A DNA stretch of 64,000 nucleotides. It comes from Micrococcaceae bacterium. Its GTDB lineage: Bacteria; Actinomycetota; Actinomycetes; Actinomycetales; Micrococcaceae. The position numbers and the translations under genes are program-made. Within the stretch, counting starts at the first letter, position 1. Each line of letters begins with the position of its first letter. Where the stretch lies: contig JABXHI010000060.1 of assembly GCA_013393415.1 (NCBI GenBank), positions 1-64,000 on the forward strand. The letters run 5' to 3'. Under the pieces are notes generated by a model. It did no database searches, had not been told where the DNA came from, and saw only the letters and a list, made by a program, of their open reading frames with translations. Below are positions 14,474 to 63,986 of this stretch, one piece after another.

Positions 14474-15342
14474 TGACGACTCCCGACCACCCAACCCAGC
14501 CCTTCGACGGTACATCAGCTGTCGGGCTGCACGAATCCGAGCGCATCCGGAACGTGTTGGTGTCACAGCAGGACCGGCCGCGACCAGCCGGTGGGTTCTC
14601 CGCCTCAGTGACCTACGGGTGGCGAGCGCTGTTGAAGATCAAGCACTTGCCCGAGCAGTTGATCGATGTGACGATTTTCCCGATCATGATGACCTTGATG
14701 TTCACCTACATTTTCGGCGGGGCAATCGGCGGTTCAGTCGATAACTATGTGCAATTTTTGATCCCGGGTATCTTCGTCCAGACCCTCATCATGATCACGA
14801 TGTACACCGGGCTGACACTCAACCGGGATGTCTCGAAGGGCGTTTTTGACCGTTTTCGGTCACTTCCGGTGTGGCGACCCGCCCAACTGGTGGGCGCACT
14901 GCTCGGCGACCAGGTGCGCTACCTGTTGGCCGGAACCATCATTCTCGCCGTCGGCTTTGCTCTAGGTTTTCGTCCCGCCGGTGGGCTGACGGGTGTCGTG
15001 GCTGCCTTCGTCTTACTGCTGGTCTTCAGTTTTAGTTTGTCGTGGGTGTGGACAACCGTTTCATTGGCGGTCCGTACCGAACAGGCCGCGATGGGTGTGT
15101 CCATGTTCATCATGATGCCTCTGGTCTTTGCTTCGAATATCTTCGTCGACCCGGACACCATGCCCGATTGGCTTCAGGGTGCGGTCGAAGTGAATCCCGT
15201 CTCCGTGGTGGTCACGACCGTGCGGGAGCTGATGGCAGGAACCTTCAGTGTCAGCTCACTCGGATTGGTCGGGCTGTGCTGCGCAGTGTTGATTGTCATC
15301 TTCGGCCCGCTGTCCATGGTCATTTACAACCGCAAAAGTTAG
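14470..15342 (+). CDS. DrrB-type ABC-2 transporter permease
   Basis: 290 residues with about six membrane helices after a cytoplasmic N-terminus of some 60 residues. The ABC-2 motifs [37 protein letters not shown] and [20 protein letters not shown] are clear. The start overlaps the ATPase stop as ATGA. The stop codon overlaps that of dnaB on the other strand (15339-15342). It forms an exporter with the preceding ATPase. Confidence 0.92.
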
Positions 15343-16712
15343 AAGCCGCCGTCGGACGGGGCCATATTCGCAAACCGTGAGTAATGTCCCTGGAAGGCAA
15401 GTTCGATGGTCTTGGTGGGGCCGTTACGGTGTTTGGCAACGATCAGGTCGGCTTCGCCGGCACGCGGCGATTCCTTGTCGTACATGTCTTCACGGTGCAG
15501 CAGGATGACCATGTCCGCGTCCTGTTCAATCGAACCGGATTCACGCAGATCCGAAACCTGTGGACGCTTATCCGTACGCTGCTCAGAGCCACGGTTCAGC
15601 TGTGACAACGCAACGACTGGGACTTCGAGTTCCTTGGCCAACAGTTTCAGAGAACGTGAGAACTCGGAGACCTCCTGCTGACGGGATTCGACACGTTTGC
15701 CCGAACTCATCAGCTGCAGATAGTCCAGCACCACCATTTTGAGGTTGTGCTGCTGTTTCAGACGACGGCACTTGGCCCGGATCTCCATCATCGACATGTT
15801 TGGGGAGTCATCGATGAAAAACGGCGCCTCATTGAGTTTCTGCAGAGTCAGCGCCATCTTGCGCCACTGTCCCTCGTCCAAGGTCCCCTTGCGAAGGTCC
15901 GACAGCGAGATGGTGGCCTCCGAGGACAACAGGCGCATCGCGATTTCCGTCTTGGACATTTCCAACGAGAAAAACGCAGTGGTCATCCCGTGCCCGACGG
16001 CCGCAGCACGCGCGAAGTCGAGTCCAAGCGTTGATTTACCAACCGCAGGACGGGCTGCAATCACGATCATTTGTCCGCCGTGGAGCCCCTGGGTGAGTTC
16101 ATCAAATTCATCGAAGCCGGAAGGTACACCGGACATACCGTCTCCGGTGGTCGAAGCAGCTTCGATCTCATCGATGGTTTCCGCAAGGATGTCGCCGAGG
16201 GCCACATAGTCCTCGCCAGTGCGGTTTTCGCCCACCTTATAAATTTCGGCTTGGGCTTCGTTGACGATGTCTTCAACCTCGCCATCGGAGCTGTAGCCCA
16301 TTTGGGAAATCTTGGCGCCCACATTAACAATGCGCCGCAGGATCGCTTTTTCAGCCACAATGTCGGCGTAGAACGATGCGTTCGCCGCTGTCGGCACCGA
16401 TTGCACCAGGGTGTGGATATGTGCGGCTCCACCCGTCCTGGCCAGTTCCTTGCGTCGATCCAACATTGAAGTGACCGTAATGGCGTCAGCGGGCTCGCCG
16501 GCGGCAAACAAATCGGTGATGGCCGTGTAGATCACTTCGTGACCGGGAGAATAAAAATCATTTGGTCGCAAGACTTCCGACACTTCAGCGATCGCGTCGG
16601 TTGATAGCATCATCGCACCCAGCACCGAACGTTCGGCGTCAAGGTCTTGCGGGGGCGTACGTGGATTGGCTGAGACTCCGTTGGCAGTTTCCATTGTGTT
16701 AAAGTTTGCCAT
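15339..16712 (-). CDS. dnaB: Replicative DNA helicase DnaB
   Basis: 457 residues from ATG 16712, the usual length, with no intein. The N-terminal domain begins PPQDLDAERSVLGAMM. The RecA-like C-domain has Walker A ARPAVGKST (220-228), Walker B MVVLDYLQLM and the DnaB motif LSQLNRGSEQRTDKRPQVSD. An open frame continues 85 codons further upstream but looks non-coding. The ATG has only a weak Shine-Dalgarno (GGAGGG is about 20 bases away). In many actinobacteria dnaB follows rplI directly; here three genes and a 776-bp non-coding segment packed with DnaA boxes intervene. Confidence 0.95.
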   Translation of the reverse strand: MANFNTMETANGVSANPRTPPQDLDAERSVLGAMMLSTDAIAEVSEVLRPNDFYSPGHEVIYTAITDLFAAGEPADAITVTSMLDRRKELARTGGAAHIHTLVQSVPTAANASFYADIVAEKAILRRIVNVGAKISQMGYSSDGEVEDIVNEAQAEIYKVGENRTGEDYVALGDILAETIDEIEAASTTGDGMSGVPSGFDEFDELTQGLHGGQMIVIAARPAVGKSTLGLDFARAAAVGHGMTTAFFSLEMSKTEIAMRLLSSEATISLSDLRKGTLDEGQWRKMALTLQKLNEAPFFIDDSPNMSMMEIRAKCRRLKQQHNLKMVVLDYLQLMSSGKRVESRQQEVSEFSRSLKLLAKELEVPVVALSQLNRGSEQRTDKRPQVSDLRESGSIEQDADMVILLHREDMYDKESPRAGEADLIVAKHRNGPTKTIELAFQGHYSRFANMAPSDGGF

Positions 16713-16788
16713 TGTTTTGTTGAAAGTACCCTCCCCTGCCCCGGCAGCATAATGCCAAAAACTCGAGCCCGTAGAACGGCCGATGCAC

Positions 16789-16806
16789 GCATCACTTTCG
16801 TGATGC
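16789..16806 (-). other. Hairpin with GAAA tetraloop upstream of dnaB
   Basis: GCATCAC (16789-16795) pairs with GTGATGC (16800-16806). Read on the minus strand the loop is GAAA, a stable GNRA tetraloop. It would fold in a dnaB leader RNA if transcription starts upstream of it. Confidence 0.4.
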
Positions 16807-16886
16807 CAATACCGGCCGCTACGAGCTAGTAACGCTCGACAATACCCGCCAAGAATTCGTCTATCAACCAACGAAAACTCTTGAAC

Positions 16887-17127
16887 TGTGAATAACTTGT
16901 GGATTTCGTTGTGGACTCTGTGCACAAGCTGTGGATCATCAGTGGAATACTTATGCACAGTATCCACAAACTCGAATCTGACTTGGGTGTTTATATAATT
17001 TCAGCTGTGGATTACTTAATTTTCCGCCCCATTTTCCGGGATTTGACAACACGATTTATCCACGAATTTAACACTTTCCACACCGTGGATCGGAGTTATC
17101 CCCAGGTTATGCACAGGCTGTGGGTAA
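16887..17127. promoter_or_regulatory. DnaA-box cluster (eight near-consensus boxes)
   Basis: Boxes with at most one mismatch to TTATCCACA start at 16887 (minus, TTATTCACA), 16951 (TTATGCACA), 16960 (GTATCCACA), 17006 (minus, TAATCCACA), 17056 (TTATCCACG), 17096 (TTATCCCCA), 17107 (TTATGCACA) and 17119 (minus, TTACCCACA). Two-mismatch boxes lie at 16898, 16919 and 16930. With equal base use about 0.05 one-mismatch boxes would be expected in this length. Both orientations occur, as in actinobacterial oriC. Confidence 0.85.
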
Positions 17128-17479
17128 ACTACACGCATGTCATTTCATAACTATTCCGCGTGAAACACGGCATGTCGCACGAAGTCGAAAATTAGACACG
17201 ACTCGAACCGAAAATTTCAAGTCGAACGCGGCACTTCGAAGACGATGAGTTCGTAGTTCACATTAGTCACTTTAAACCGAGTTACCGGGAAGAAATATCT
17301 CGTTCATGAAGTAAGGGAGACCTCAGAAAAAATTGTTCACCGATCCTGAATCGCTGCTTTTTGACGAGATAATGAACAGATTTCCGCCACGACTCAACCG
17401 TGGTGCTCCGCCTGTCGTCAGCACGTCCCGACGGCGAGAATTACACACGTGTAACTTGTGCACAGCGTGTGGACATCTC

Positions 17480-17488
17480 TGTGGATAA
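17480..17488 (-). promoter_or_regulatory. Perfect DnaA box
   Basis: TGTGGATAA is the exact complement of TTATCCACA. It abuts the yggS stop codon. A two-mismatch box (TTGTGCACA) is at 17456-17464. Confidence 0.75.
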
Positions 17489-18232
17489 CTACTTCGCTGA
17501 GTAGTCGCGTGCTCCGAAGATCGCGGTACCCACGCGGATGACGGTGGCGCCTTCCTCGATGGCGATCTCATAGTCGTTGGACATGCCCATAGACAGACCA
17601 CCTTCACCGATCAGTTCCGGACGACGCTCACGTAGGTCATCACGCAGATCGCGCAGCATGGAAAAGTTTTCGCGGACCACGGTCTCGTCATCGGTGTGAA
17701 ACGCCATGGTCATCAGTCCTCGAACGTTCAGAGCGTCAAACTCTTGGAGTTGCTCCAGGAAATCTTCGACCTGCCGCGGCTCAAGTCCCGACTTCGTGGT
17801 TTCACCTGAGGCGTTGATCTGGACATACACGTCAAGAGTGCGACCATATTCTTTCAAGTGCGAATCAAGCCTGGCCGCAATACGGAGCCGATCCAGGGCC
17901 TGGAATTCACTGGCGAACTGGGCAACGGCACGAGTTTTGTTCGACTGCAAGGGCCCGATCACAGCCCAGTGCACGTTCAAATCGGCCATAGCCTTGGCTT
18001 TGGTTTCTGCTTCCTGCACCTTATTTTCAGCTAGCTGGACCATCCCGGCAGCATATGCAGCACGAAGGCGTTCCTCCGGCACAGTCTTAGAAACCGGTAG
18101 GAGGCGAATCTCTTGAGGATCACGACCAACCCGTTCAGCAGCAAAGGCGATGCGTTCACGAACCTCATCAAGCGCTTTATGGAACTCTATTTCTGTGGTG
18201 GCGACAACAGGTGCATTCTCAGGCGTGGACAT
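17489..18232 (-). CDS. YggS family PLP homeostasis protein
   Basis: 247 residues from ATG 18232, fold-type III PLP-binding protein (COG0325, PLPBP). The PLP lysine is K49 in LLPVSKTVPEE. Other blocks are DVYVQINASGETTKSG, LSMGMSNDYEIAIEEGATVIRVGTAIFG. The family has no known catalytic reaction and buffers cellular PLP. It is divergent from a MocR-type PLP-binding regulator with 73 bp between starts, so the two may form a PLP-sensing unit. The stop lies right at a perfect DnaA box. Confidence 0.92.
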   Translation of the reverse strand: MSTPENAPVVATTEIEFHKALDEVRERIAFAAERVGRDPQEIRLLPVSKTVPEERLRAAYAAGMVQLAENKVQEAETKAKAMADLNVHWAVIGPLQSNKTRAVAQFASEFQALDRLRIAARLDSHLKEYGRTLDVYVQINASGETTKSGLEPRQVEDFLEQLQEFDALNVRGLMTMAFHTDDETVVRENFSMLRDLRDDLRERRPELIGEGGLSMGMSNDYEIAIEEGATVIRVGTAIFGARDYSAK

Positions 18233-18305
18233 GACCAAAATGTAACATAGAAGCAGAGTATTTTAGCCTTAACCCCCGTGAGTGGTGGGTTGTTCAGGAG
18301 TTTTG

Positions 18306-62047: not shown

Positions 62048-62465
62048 TGTTATTCTCCACACTCAGTCAAACGCAGAAGCATGCTTGGGGAAGTACGTCT
62101 CATACTGCGGTTGCCCAAAAACTTCGCGATATTCGTTCATTATCTATTCATATTTACCCGGTCGCGGCCATCAAAAGGGCACGCTGCACCCCGGGTAAGA
62201 CTTCCTTAGTCTAAGAAGCACAACCGATTTGGTCAAATTCGACAAGATAATCGACTACCCGAAATGATCCACTGTGTATAAGCTGTGCATAACCATCTCG
62301 TACCTGTGGAGATTAAGGCTATGGTTGGGGAGGCGCAAGTACAAAAACGTTGCGATCTCGAGACAAGAGACAACGAACTGCACCGACGGTGTGACGAGCA
62401 AACAGTGCCGTGATGACGAGGGAACTCATTGTCAGTACGGGCAGCGTGAATTGGGGTTTTAACGG
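62048..62465. other. rpmH-dnaA intergenic region
   Basis: 418 bp without a gene; it should hold both promoters. It has only two one-mismatch DnaA boxes, 62273-62281 (TTATACACA on minus) and 62284-62292 (TTATGCACA on minus), plus a weak one at 62305. This is enough for dnaA autoregulation but thin for an origin; the dnaA-dnaN gap lies outside the window. Confidence 0.7.
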
Positions 62466-63986
62466 ATGAGTGTAAGCGAATCGATCATCAACTCGTGGGA
62501 TCGAGTTGTTGAGAACATGCGCGCATCAGGTGACGTCGGTCCAAGTCAGATGGGATTTTTGGATCTCGCGCACCCGCAAGGACTCATCGCAAATACTCTG
62601 CTGTTAGCGGTCCCCAATGAGATGACTCGCGACATCTTAGAAAACCAGCTTCACGAGTATCTGGCAGATGCACTCACCGAAGTTTTTGGCACCGACATCA
62701 ATTGCGCTTACTCCATCGACACCTCCATGCACGCCACCACGCCATCAATACCTAGTTCTCCACCGCCATCCATACAAGAAGAATCCACTGTGGACAATGT
62801 TGTGGATATCTCAGAAGCATCGCAGTCCCACTCGGAACGATCTCTGTCAGACGAACCGCTCATGGATGACCTTTTTAGCTCACAAACCAACCCTGCAGCT
62901 GCACTCAATGGTGGCGCGCAATTAACAGTCCCGCCAAATTCAGGTGAACGTTCCCGACTCAATGAGCACTATCACTTCGACAATTTCATCACGGGTTCAT
63001 CCAACCGTTTTGCCCATGCAGCAGCGTATGCCGTTTCGGAACAACCGGCGAAATCATACAACCCACTGTTTATTTATGGTGAATCCGGTCTCGGCAAAAC
63101 GCACTTGCTCCATGCCATTGGTCACTATGCTCAAGAACTCTTTCCTGGCCTGCGTGTTCGCTACGTCAACTCCGAAGAGTTCACCAACGATTTCATTAAC
63201 TCGATTCGCCATGACGAGGGTGCATCCTTCAAACAGATCTACCGCAACGTCGACATCCTGCTCATTGACGACATCCAGTTCATGGCCAATAAAGAAGCCA
63301 CCGTTGAAGAGTTCTTCCACACCTTCAACGCCCTCTACAACAACCACAAACAGGTTGTGATCACTTCGGATCTCCCACCGAAACAGCTATCTGGGTTCGA
63401 GGAACGGTTGCGCTCCCGCTTCGAGTGGGGCCTCACCACGGATATCCAGCCACCCGATTTGGAAACTCGGATCGCGATCTTGGCCAAGAAGGCCGATGCT
63501 GAACGTATTACTGTGCCAAAAGATGCGCTGGAATACATTGCGTCACGCATCGATACCAATATTCGCGAACTTGAAGGCGCCCTAACGCGCGTCACCGCTT
63601 ACGCTTCGTTGAATAATGAGCCGATCAACCTCGATCAAGCGCAATACATTTTGAAAGACTTGATCACTGACGACGATGCTCAGGAGATCACCTCGGATCT
63701 CATTATGGACGAGACCGCAAACTATTTTGGCTTTACGATTGCCGATCTGCAGTCCAAGTCCCGTACCCGCACATTGGTGACCGCCCGACAGATTTCCATG
63801 TATCTGCTGCGCGAATTGACTGAAATGTCGCTGCCTCGCATCGGAGCTGAATTCGGCGGACGCGATCACACCACGGTGATGCACGCTGATCGAAAGATCC
63901 GGGATCTGATGAGTGAACGGCACGCGATTTACAACCAAGTCACCGAGCTCACGAACAAAATTAAGCAGCGCGCTCGGAACGTTTAA
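62466..63986 (+). CDS. dnaA: Chromosomal replication initiator DnaA
   Basis: 506 residues from ATG 62466 (only a weak GGGG upstream). Domain I (1-85), an acidic Ser/Pro-rich linker (about 86-165), the AAA+ domain with Walker A GESGLGKT (205-212) and Walker [12 protein letters not shown], and the DNA-binding domain ending [19 protein letters not shown]. It binds TTATCCACA boxes; a dense cluster of these lies at 16.9-17.1 kb rather than next to the gene within this window. Confidence 0.97.

Follow-up and report, generated by a model that had tools for sequence, protein, structure and literature searches.

A dense DnaA-box array upstream of dnaB in a Micrococcaceae bacterium, probably a DnaA-responsive regulatory region of the helicase gene

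Five regions bound by DnaA were identified in Mycobacterium tuberculosis by IDAP-seq: oriC, the rpmH-dnaA region, Rv0057 upstream of dnaB, Rv0010c-Rv0011c and Rv3843c-RVnc0040 (Hicks et al. 2020, PMC7738170). The homologous regions of M. smegmatis, including the dnaB site, correspond to ChIP-seq peaks, and a DnaA I282T mutant shows both weaker binding upstream of dnaB and under-expression of this gene (PMC7738170). According to the same authors, the DnaA of Caulobacter also binds upstream of dnaB. At the crgA-adjacent site of M. tuberculosis, clinical strains acquire mutations, and no counterpart in other species was apparent to the authors who discovered it (PMC7738170). Besides this work, no other open paper dealing with DnaA boxes upstream of dnaB was found.

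Other DnaA-box clusters are found outside oriC. Those of Bacillus subtilis (Okumura et al. 2012, reviewed in PMC5295017) lie close to oriC and were shown to restrain initiation. Clusters of Streptomyces coelicolor that lie outside oriC are also reported to affect replication (Smulczyk-Krawczyszyn et al. 2006, cited in PMC5742627). The Escherichia coli datA locus, also a DnaA-box cluster outside oriC, hydrolyses DnaA-ATP with IHF and is not a dnaB promoter. The restraint of DnaA in actinobacteria is poorly known.

The locus analysed here belongs to a window of 64,000 nucleotides (the whole stretch of DNA analysed) from a Micrococcaceae bacterium. Its DnaB is 93-97% identical to homologues from Yaniella and Enteractinococcus, which indicates that the genome is a relative of these genera. 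The features around dnaB are as follows.

15339-16712, minus strand: dnaB, replicative DNA helicase (457 aa; Pfam DnaB, DnaB_C)
16767-16826, minus strand: hairpin in the dnaB 5' leader, with about 21 pairs conserved in Yaniella/Enteractinococcus
16839-16844, minus strand: predicted dnaB -10 element, TATTGT, separated from the -35 by 17 bp
16862-16867, minus strand: predicted dnaB -35 element, TTGATA (the first five bases, TTGAT, are identical in all 8 sequences)
16887-17127, both strands: main DnaA-box array found by box scan, with positions conserved in 7 relatives
16887-16938, minus strand: promoter-proximal co-oriented run of boxes directed towards dnaB (16930, 16919, 16910 weak, 16898 weak, 16887)
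16887, 16919, 16930, 17006 and 17119, minus strand: array boxes with at most one mismatch to TTATNCACA
16951, 16960, 17056, 17096 and 17107, plus strand: array boxes with at most one mismatch to TTATNCACA
16898 and 16910, minus strand, and 17074, plus strand: weaker array boxes
17096-17127: upstream end of the array, with a tandem pair on the plus strand (17096 and 17107, 2-bp gap) and an opposed box on the minus strand (17119)
17456-17488: small distal box group at the 3' end of yggS (17456 plus; 17468 and 17480 minus, the latter a perfect TTATCCACA)
17489-18238, minus strand: yggS-like PLP-binding protein (Pfam Ala_racemase_N), upstream neighbour of dnaB in the lineage

The array thus lies between yggS and dnaB, two genes of the same orientation, and a GntR/MocR-type regulator, rplI and ssb follow past yggS. 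The dense box cluster upstream of dnaB is real. The original prediction listed eight boxes with at most one mismatch and three with two mismatches in 241 bp (16887-17127); with the strict consensus TTATCCACA, this stretch contains no perfect box, nine boxes with one mismatch and, as announced, three with two. The chance expectation of about 0.05 one-mismatch boxes under equal base use was reproduced (0.050 for at most one mismatch), and 3000 first-order Markov simulations gave a mean of 0.11 and a maximum of 2. When TTATNCACA is taken as consensus, ten boxes have at most one mismatch (mean of 0.28 and maximum of 3 in shuffles), three of them exact (16887, 16951 and 17107). Exact-match searches, which made up the genome-wide box survey, found three exact TTATNCACA within 300 bp nowhere else in the genome. 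The perfect TTATCCACA announced at 17480 is also present and is accompanied by the boxes at 17456 and 17468; the position of this distal group is not conserved in the relatives compared.

The 300 bp of the array tie with those of oriC as the densest of the 69.7-kb contig, with 10 boxes each. The features of the origin region, where dnaA was found as predicted at about 62.5 kb, are the following.

62273-62292, minus strand: two exact TTATNCACA boxes in tandem upstream of dnaA, a probable autoregulatory site
62466-63986, plus strand: dnaA, followed by oriC in the dnaA-dnaN gap
64127-64407 of the contig, just outside the window: oriC array of 10 boxes in the dnaA-dnaN gap

The dnaA-dnaN gap and the dnaB array are 45-47 kb apart. 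In this class, such a density is not confined to oriC, contrary to the premise of the original prediction: dnaB and the 3' end of crgA carry box clusters as well (see below).

The geometry of the array follows dnaB. Across seven Yaniella/Enteractinococcus loci, boxes are found at near-constant distances from dnaB, counted from its aligned start, with shared positions at -414, -402, -391, -301, -255, -246, -225, -214, -193, -182 and -153. The promoter-proximal run, whose boxes follow each other at 9-12 bp steps, is found in the relatives at -225, -214, -193 and -182. The yggS-dnaB distance varies threefold among relatives, from 0.78 to 2.5 kb, while box positions remain fixed, and their alignment shows poor conservation beyond the array on the upstream side. 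Furthermore, the boxes stay with dnaB where its upstream neighbour switches from rplI to yggS. A gap of 19 bp separates the last box of the array (16887-16895) from the predicted -35, and transcription of dnaB is predicted to start near 16832. Seven of the 8 sequences have a promoter TTGATN-17-TAT[TC]GT directly downstream of the array, the exception being E. helveticum, with TAGCGT. In four relatives, a DnaA box TGATCCACA overlaps the -35; it is absent at the -35 of the window.

Such boxes are not restricted to this lineage. For 90 genomes from 33 families of the class, the 450 bp preceding dnaB were surveyed, a box being defined by at most one mismatch to TTRTCCACA; at least one box was present in 87 loci and at least two in 79. 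The mean is 3.1 boxes per 450 bp versus 0.16 further upstream (about 20 times less), and it reaches 5.2 in the 29 Micrococcaceae loci, including that of the genome studied here. Most of the boxes (225/281) are oriented towards dnaB. Of the tandem pairs offset by 9-20 bp (125 in total), 101 have an offset of 11 or 12 bp; such 11-12 bp pairs are present in 66 of the 90 loci versus 0.2 in shuffles, and five of them occur in the array of the window. In vivo, E. coli DnaA prefers pairs of boxes 2-3 bp apart, i.e., with offsets of 11-12 bp (PMC11317965). As pair spacing played no part in choosing the loci, it provides the strongest sequence evidence that the surveyed dnaB loci are DnaA sites.

Some genomes depart from this pattern. 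Brevibacterium and Sediminivirga have no box cluster at dnaB, which is thus dispensable there. In several species of these two genera, dnaB lies close behind a membrane-protein gene and the upstream boxes are lost.

Taken together, position, class-wide conservation, pair spacing and the published binding of mycobacterial DnaA support a control of dnaB by DnaA, and the array is probably a DnaA-responsive regulatory region of this gene. It would be best read as a lineage-expanded, unusually dense version of a known site of dnaB control by DnaA, which almost the entire class possesses. Like the dnaB site of M. tuberculosis, it lies directly upstream of dnaB, at a locus where boxes are above background class-wide and form closely spaced pairs, and class, gene and place near oriC are alike. 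It differs by its 10-13 predicted boxes in an ordered array, whereas relatives in the class typically have 1-6. Thus, one of the four readings put forward in the original prediction, DnaA control of dnaB, is well supported, while those of a true origin and of a second origin are not (see below).

Most likely, DnaA would cooperatively fill the ordered array, many boxes of which form head-to-tail pairs with 2-3 bp gaps. The filled array, ending about 20 bp upstream of the -35, would then modulate the dnaB promoter, and helicase synthesis would depend on how much DnaA is present and in which nucleotide state. The sign of this regulation is uncertain; activation seems likelier at ordinary DnaA levels, since the mycobacterial I282T mutant with reduced binding under-expresses dnaB. 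At high occupancy, repression could occur in the relatives whose box overlaps the -35. The many DnaA molecules held 45 kb from oriC could also result in some titration of DnaA, likely as a by-product of so many sites. For this organism, we infer DnaA binding at the array, as well as the sign and timing of regulation and any titration.

The main alternative is that the array acts primarily as a DnaA sink, comparable to datA or to the clusters of B. subtilis, which would delay re-initiation after its early duplication, its placement at dnaB being secondary. The array has as many boxes as oriC (10 and 10), outside oriC and close to it as in titration clusters, and its size exceeds what would be required for ordinary promoter control. 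Being located 45 kb from oriC, it is duplicated early. The clusters of B. subtilis and S. coelicolor restrain initiation (PMC5295017, PMC5742627); those of B. subtilis are not homologous to the dnaB array, whereas those of S. coelicolor could be the same locus. However, a sink does not account for the geometry fixed relative to the dnaB promoter, the orientation bias towards dnaB, the persistence of the boxes with dnaB despite the change of neighbour, or the under-expression of dnaB when less DnaA binds there in the M. tuberculosis mutant. A main role as a sink is thus unlikely, and a datA-like titration is possible as a secondary effect. Distance to oriC was considered as a means of separating regulation from titration. 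It proved uninformative, except in one possibly misassembled genome: the distance between dnaA and dnaB nearly always falls within 19-140 kb, and the two cannot be told apart by position alone. In this relative (G002), unlike in the other genomes, dnaB is at least 470 kb from dnaA, due to a rearrangement or a misassembly, and yet six boxes are kept, which, if the assembly is correct, also argues against a sink.

Another argument in favour of a sink comes from a second cluster. The Brevibacterium sp. W7.2 genome, devoid of a dnaB cluster, carries a cluster of five boxes 44 kb from oriC, on the side opposite to dnaB; it is flanked by crgA and by a rhomboid gene that neighbours ppiA. In the genome studied here, eight boxes lie between the 3' end of crgA and a convergent rhomboid gene (contig C5, 13252-13397), and the relatives have six to eight at this site. 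In the class, boxes were found within 450 bp downstream of crgA in 26 of 30 loci (mean of 2.3 versus 0.09), and 17 of 17 further crgA loci have at least one. From the gene order (ppiA, Rv0010c, crgA = Rv0011c), we take this cluster to be the Rv0010c-Rv0011c DnaA site of M. tuberculosis. Since the flanking genes are convergent in the genome studied here, this cluster does not sit at a promoter and is not expected to control one; roles other than promoter control thus probably exist in the same genome. The crgA cluster thus appears a better candidate for titration and the dnaB cluster a better candidate for transcriptional control. One could tentatively imagine, although this is rather doubtful, that the two conserved satellite clusters near oriC in class Actinomycetes (dnaB promoter and crgA 3' end) together form a system that counts DnaA and links initiation with helicase supply and perhaps with division, both clusters being enlarged to nearly the size of oriC in Yaniella/Enteractinococcus.

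A class-wide, sequence-defined site at the helicase promoter, oversized in one lineage, would offer a locus for separating transcriptional control from titration. The DnaA sites of M. tuberculosis, including the crgA-adjacent one, also gain a conserved context. Elsewhere in the genome studied here, three tandem DnaA boxes are found at 11-12 bp steps (contig C6, 50535-50566).

It seems very unlikely that the boxes act on DnaA in another way, for example as a reactivating (DARS-like) or structural chromosome site. Ordered close-packed boxes could hold DnaA oligomers, and nucleotide exchange would be compatible with such an arrangement, but the position fixed relative to the promoter favours transcription. 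The E. coli datA and DARS2 loci need IHF or Fis sites, and the proteins named IHF in actinobacteria bear no relation to the IHF of E. coli.

The array shares with oriC its box density, AT-richness and tandem boxes. The AT-rich stretch noticed in the original prediction is indeed AT-rich (GC of 0.43 versus 0.57 in the window) but not distinctive, and it was rejected as an unwinding element, six other places of the contig having a lower stability. The boxes of the dnaA-dnaN gap, which the original prediction had left to be counted, equal those of the dnaB array without exceeding them. The cumulative skew of the contig falls past dnaB with no switch. In the 200 kb read from Y. halotolerans, the GC-skew minimum lies at about 1.124 Mb, with dnaA at 1.132 Mb and dnaB at 1.173 Mb, i.e., about 8 kb from the former and about 50 kb from the latter, and there is no switch at dnaB; the box clusters of this region contain 9 boxes at oriC, 4 at the dnaA promoter and 11 at dnaB, besides one cluster of 3. 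The dnaA-dnaN region is the established origin in the class. Its general layout and the Streptomyces origin are described in PMC4285127. Although box number, AT-richness and helix stability are like those of the dnaA-dnaN gap, it is hardly credible that the array is the true chromosomal origin, which the array of the gap and the adjoining skew minimum of Y. halotolerans contradict, or a second functional origin, for which no support was found, as it lacks a skew switch, is tied to the dnaB promoter rather than placed beside dnaA-dnaN free of a rival array, and has counterparts at dnaB in other orders that initiate at dnaA-dnaN.

Downstream of the promoter, the leader hairpin of dnaB is strong, and one of its pairs is changed on both sides in Yaniella/Enteractinococcus with pairing kept. 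No Rfam match was found for this leader, and a class-wide leader structure is not supported (mean z of -0.3 in the other families). In many high-GC relatives, a short motif like TGTCGGTGG recurs between the dnaB promoter and the gene itself, about 100 bp before the latter.
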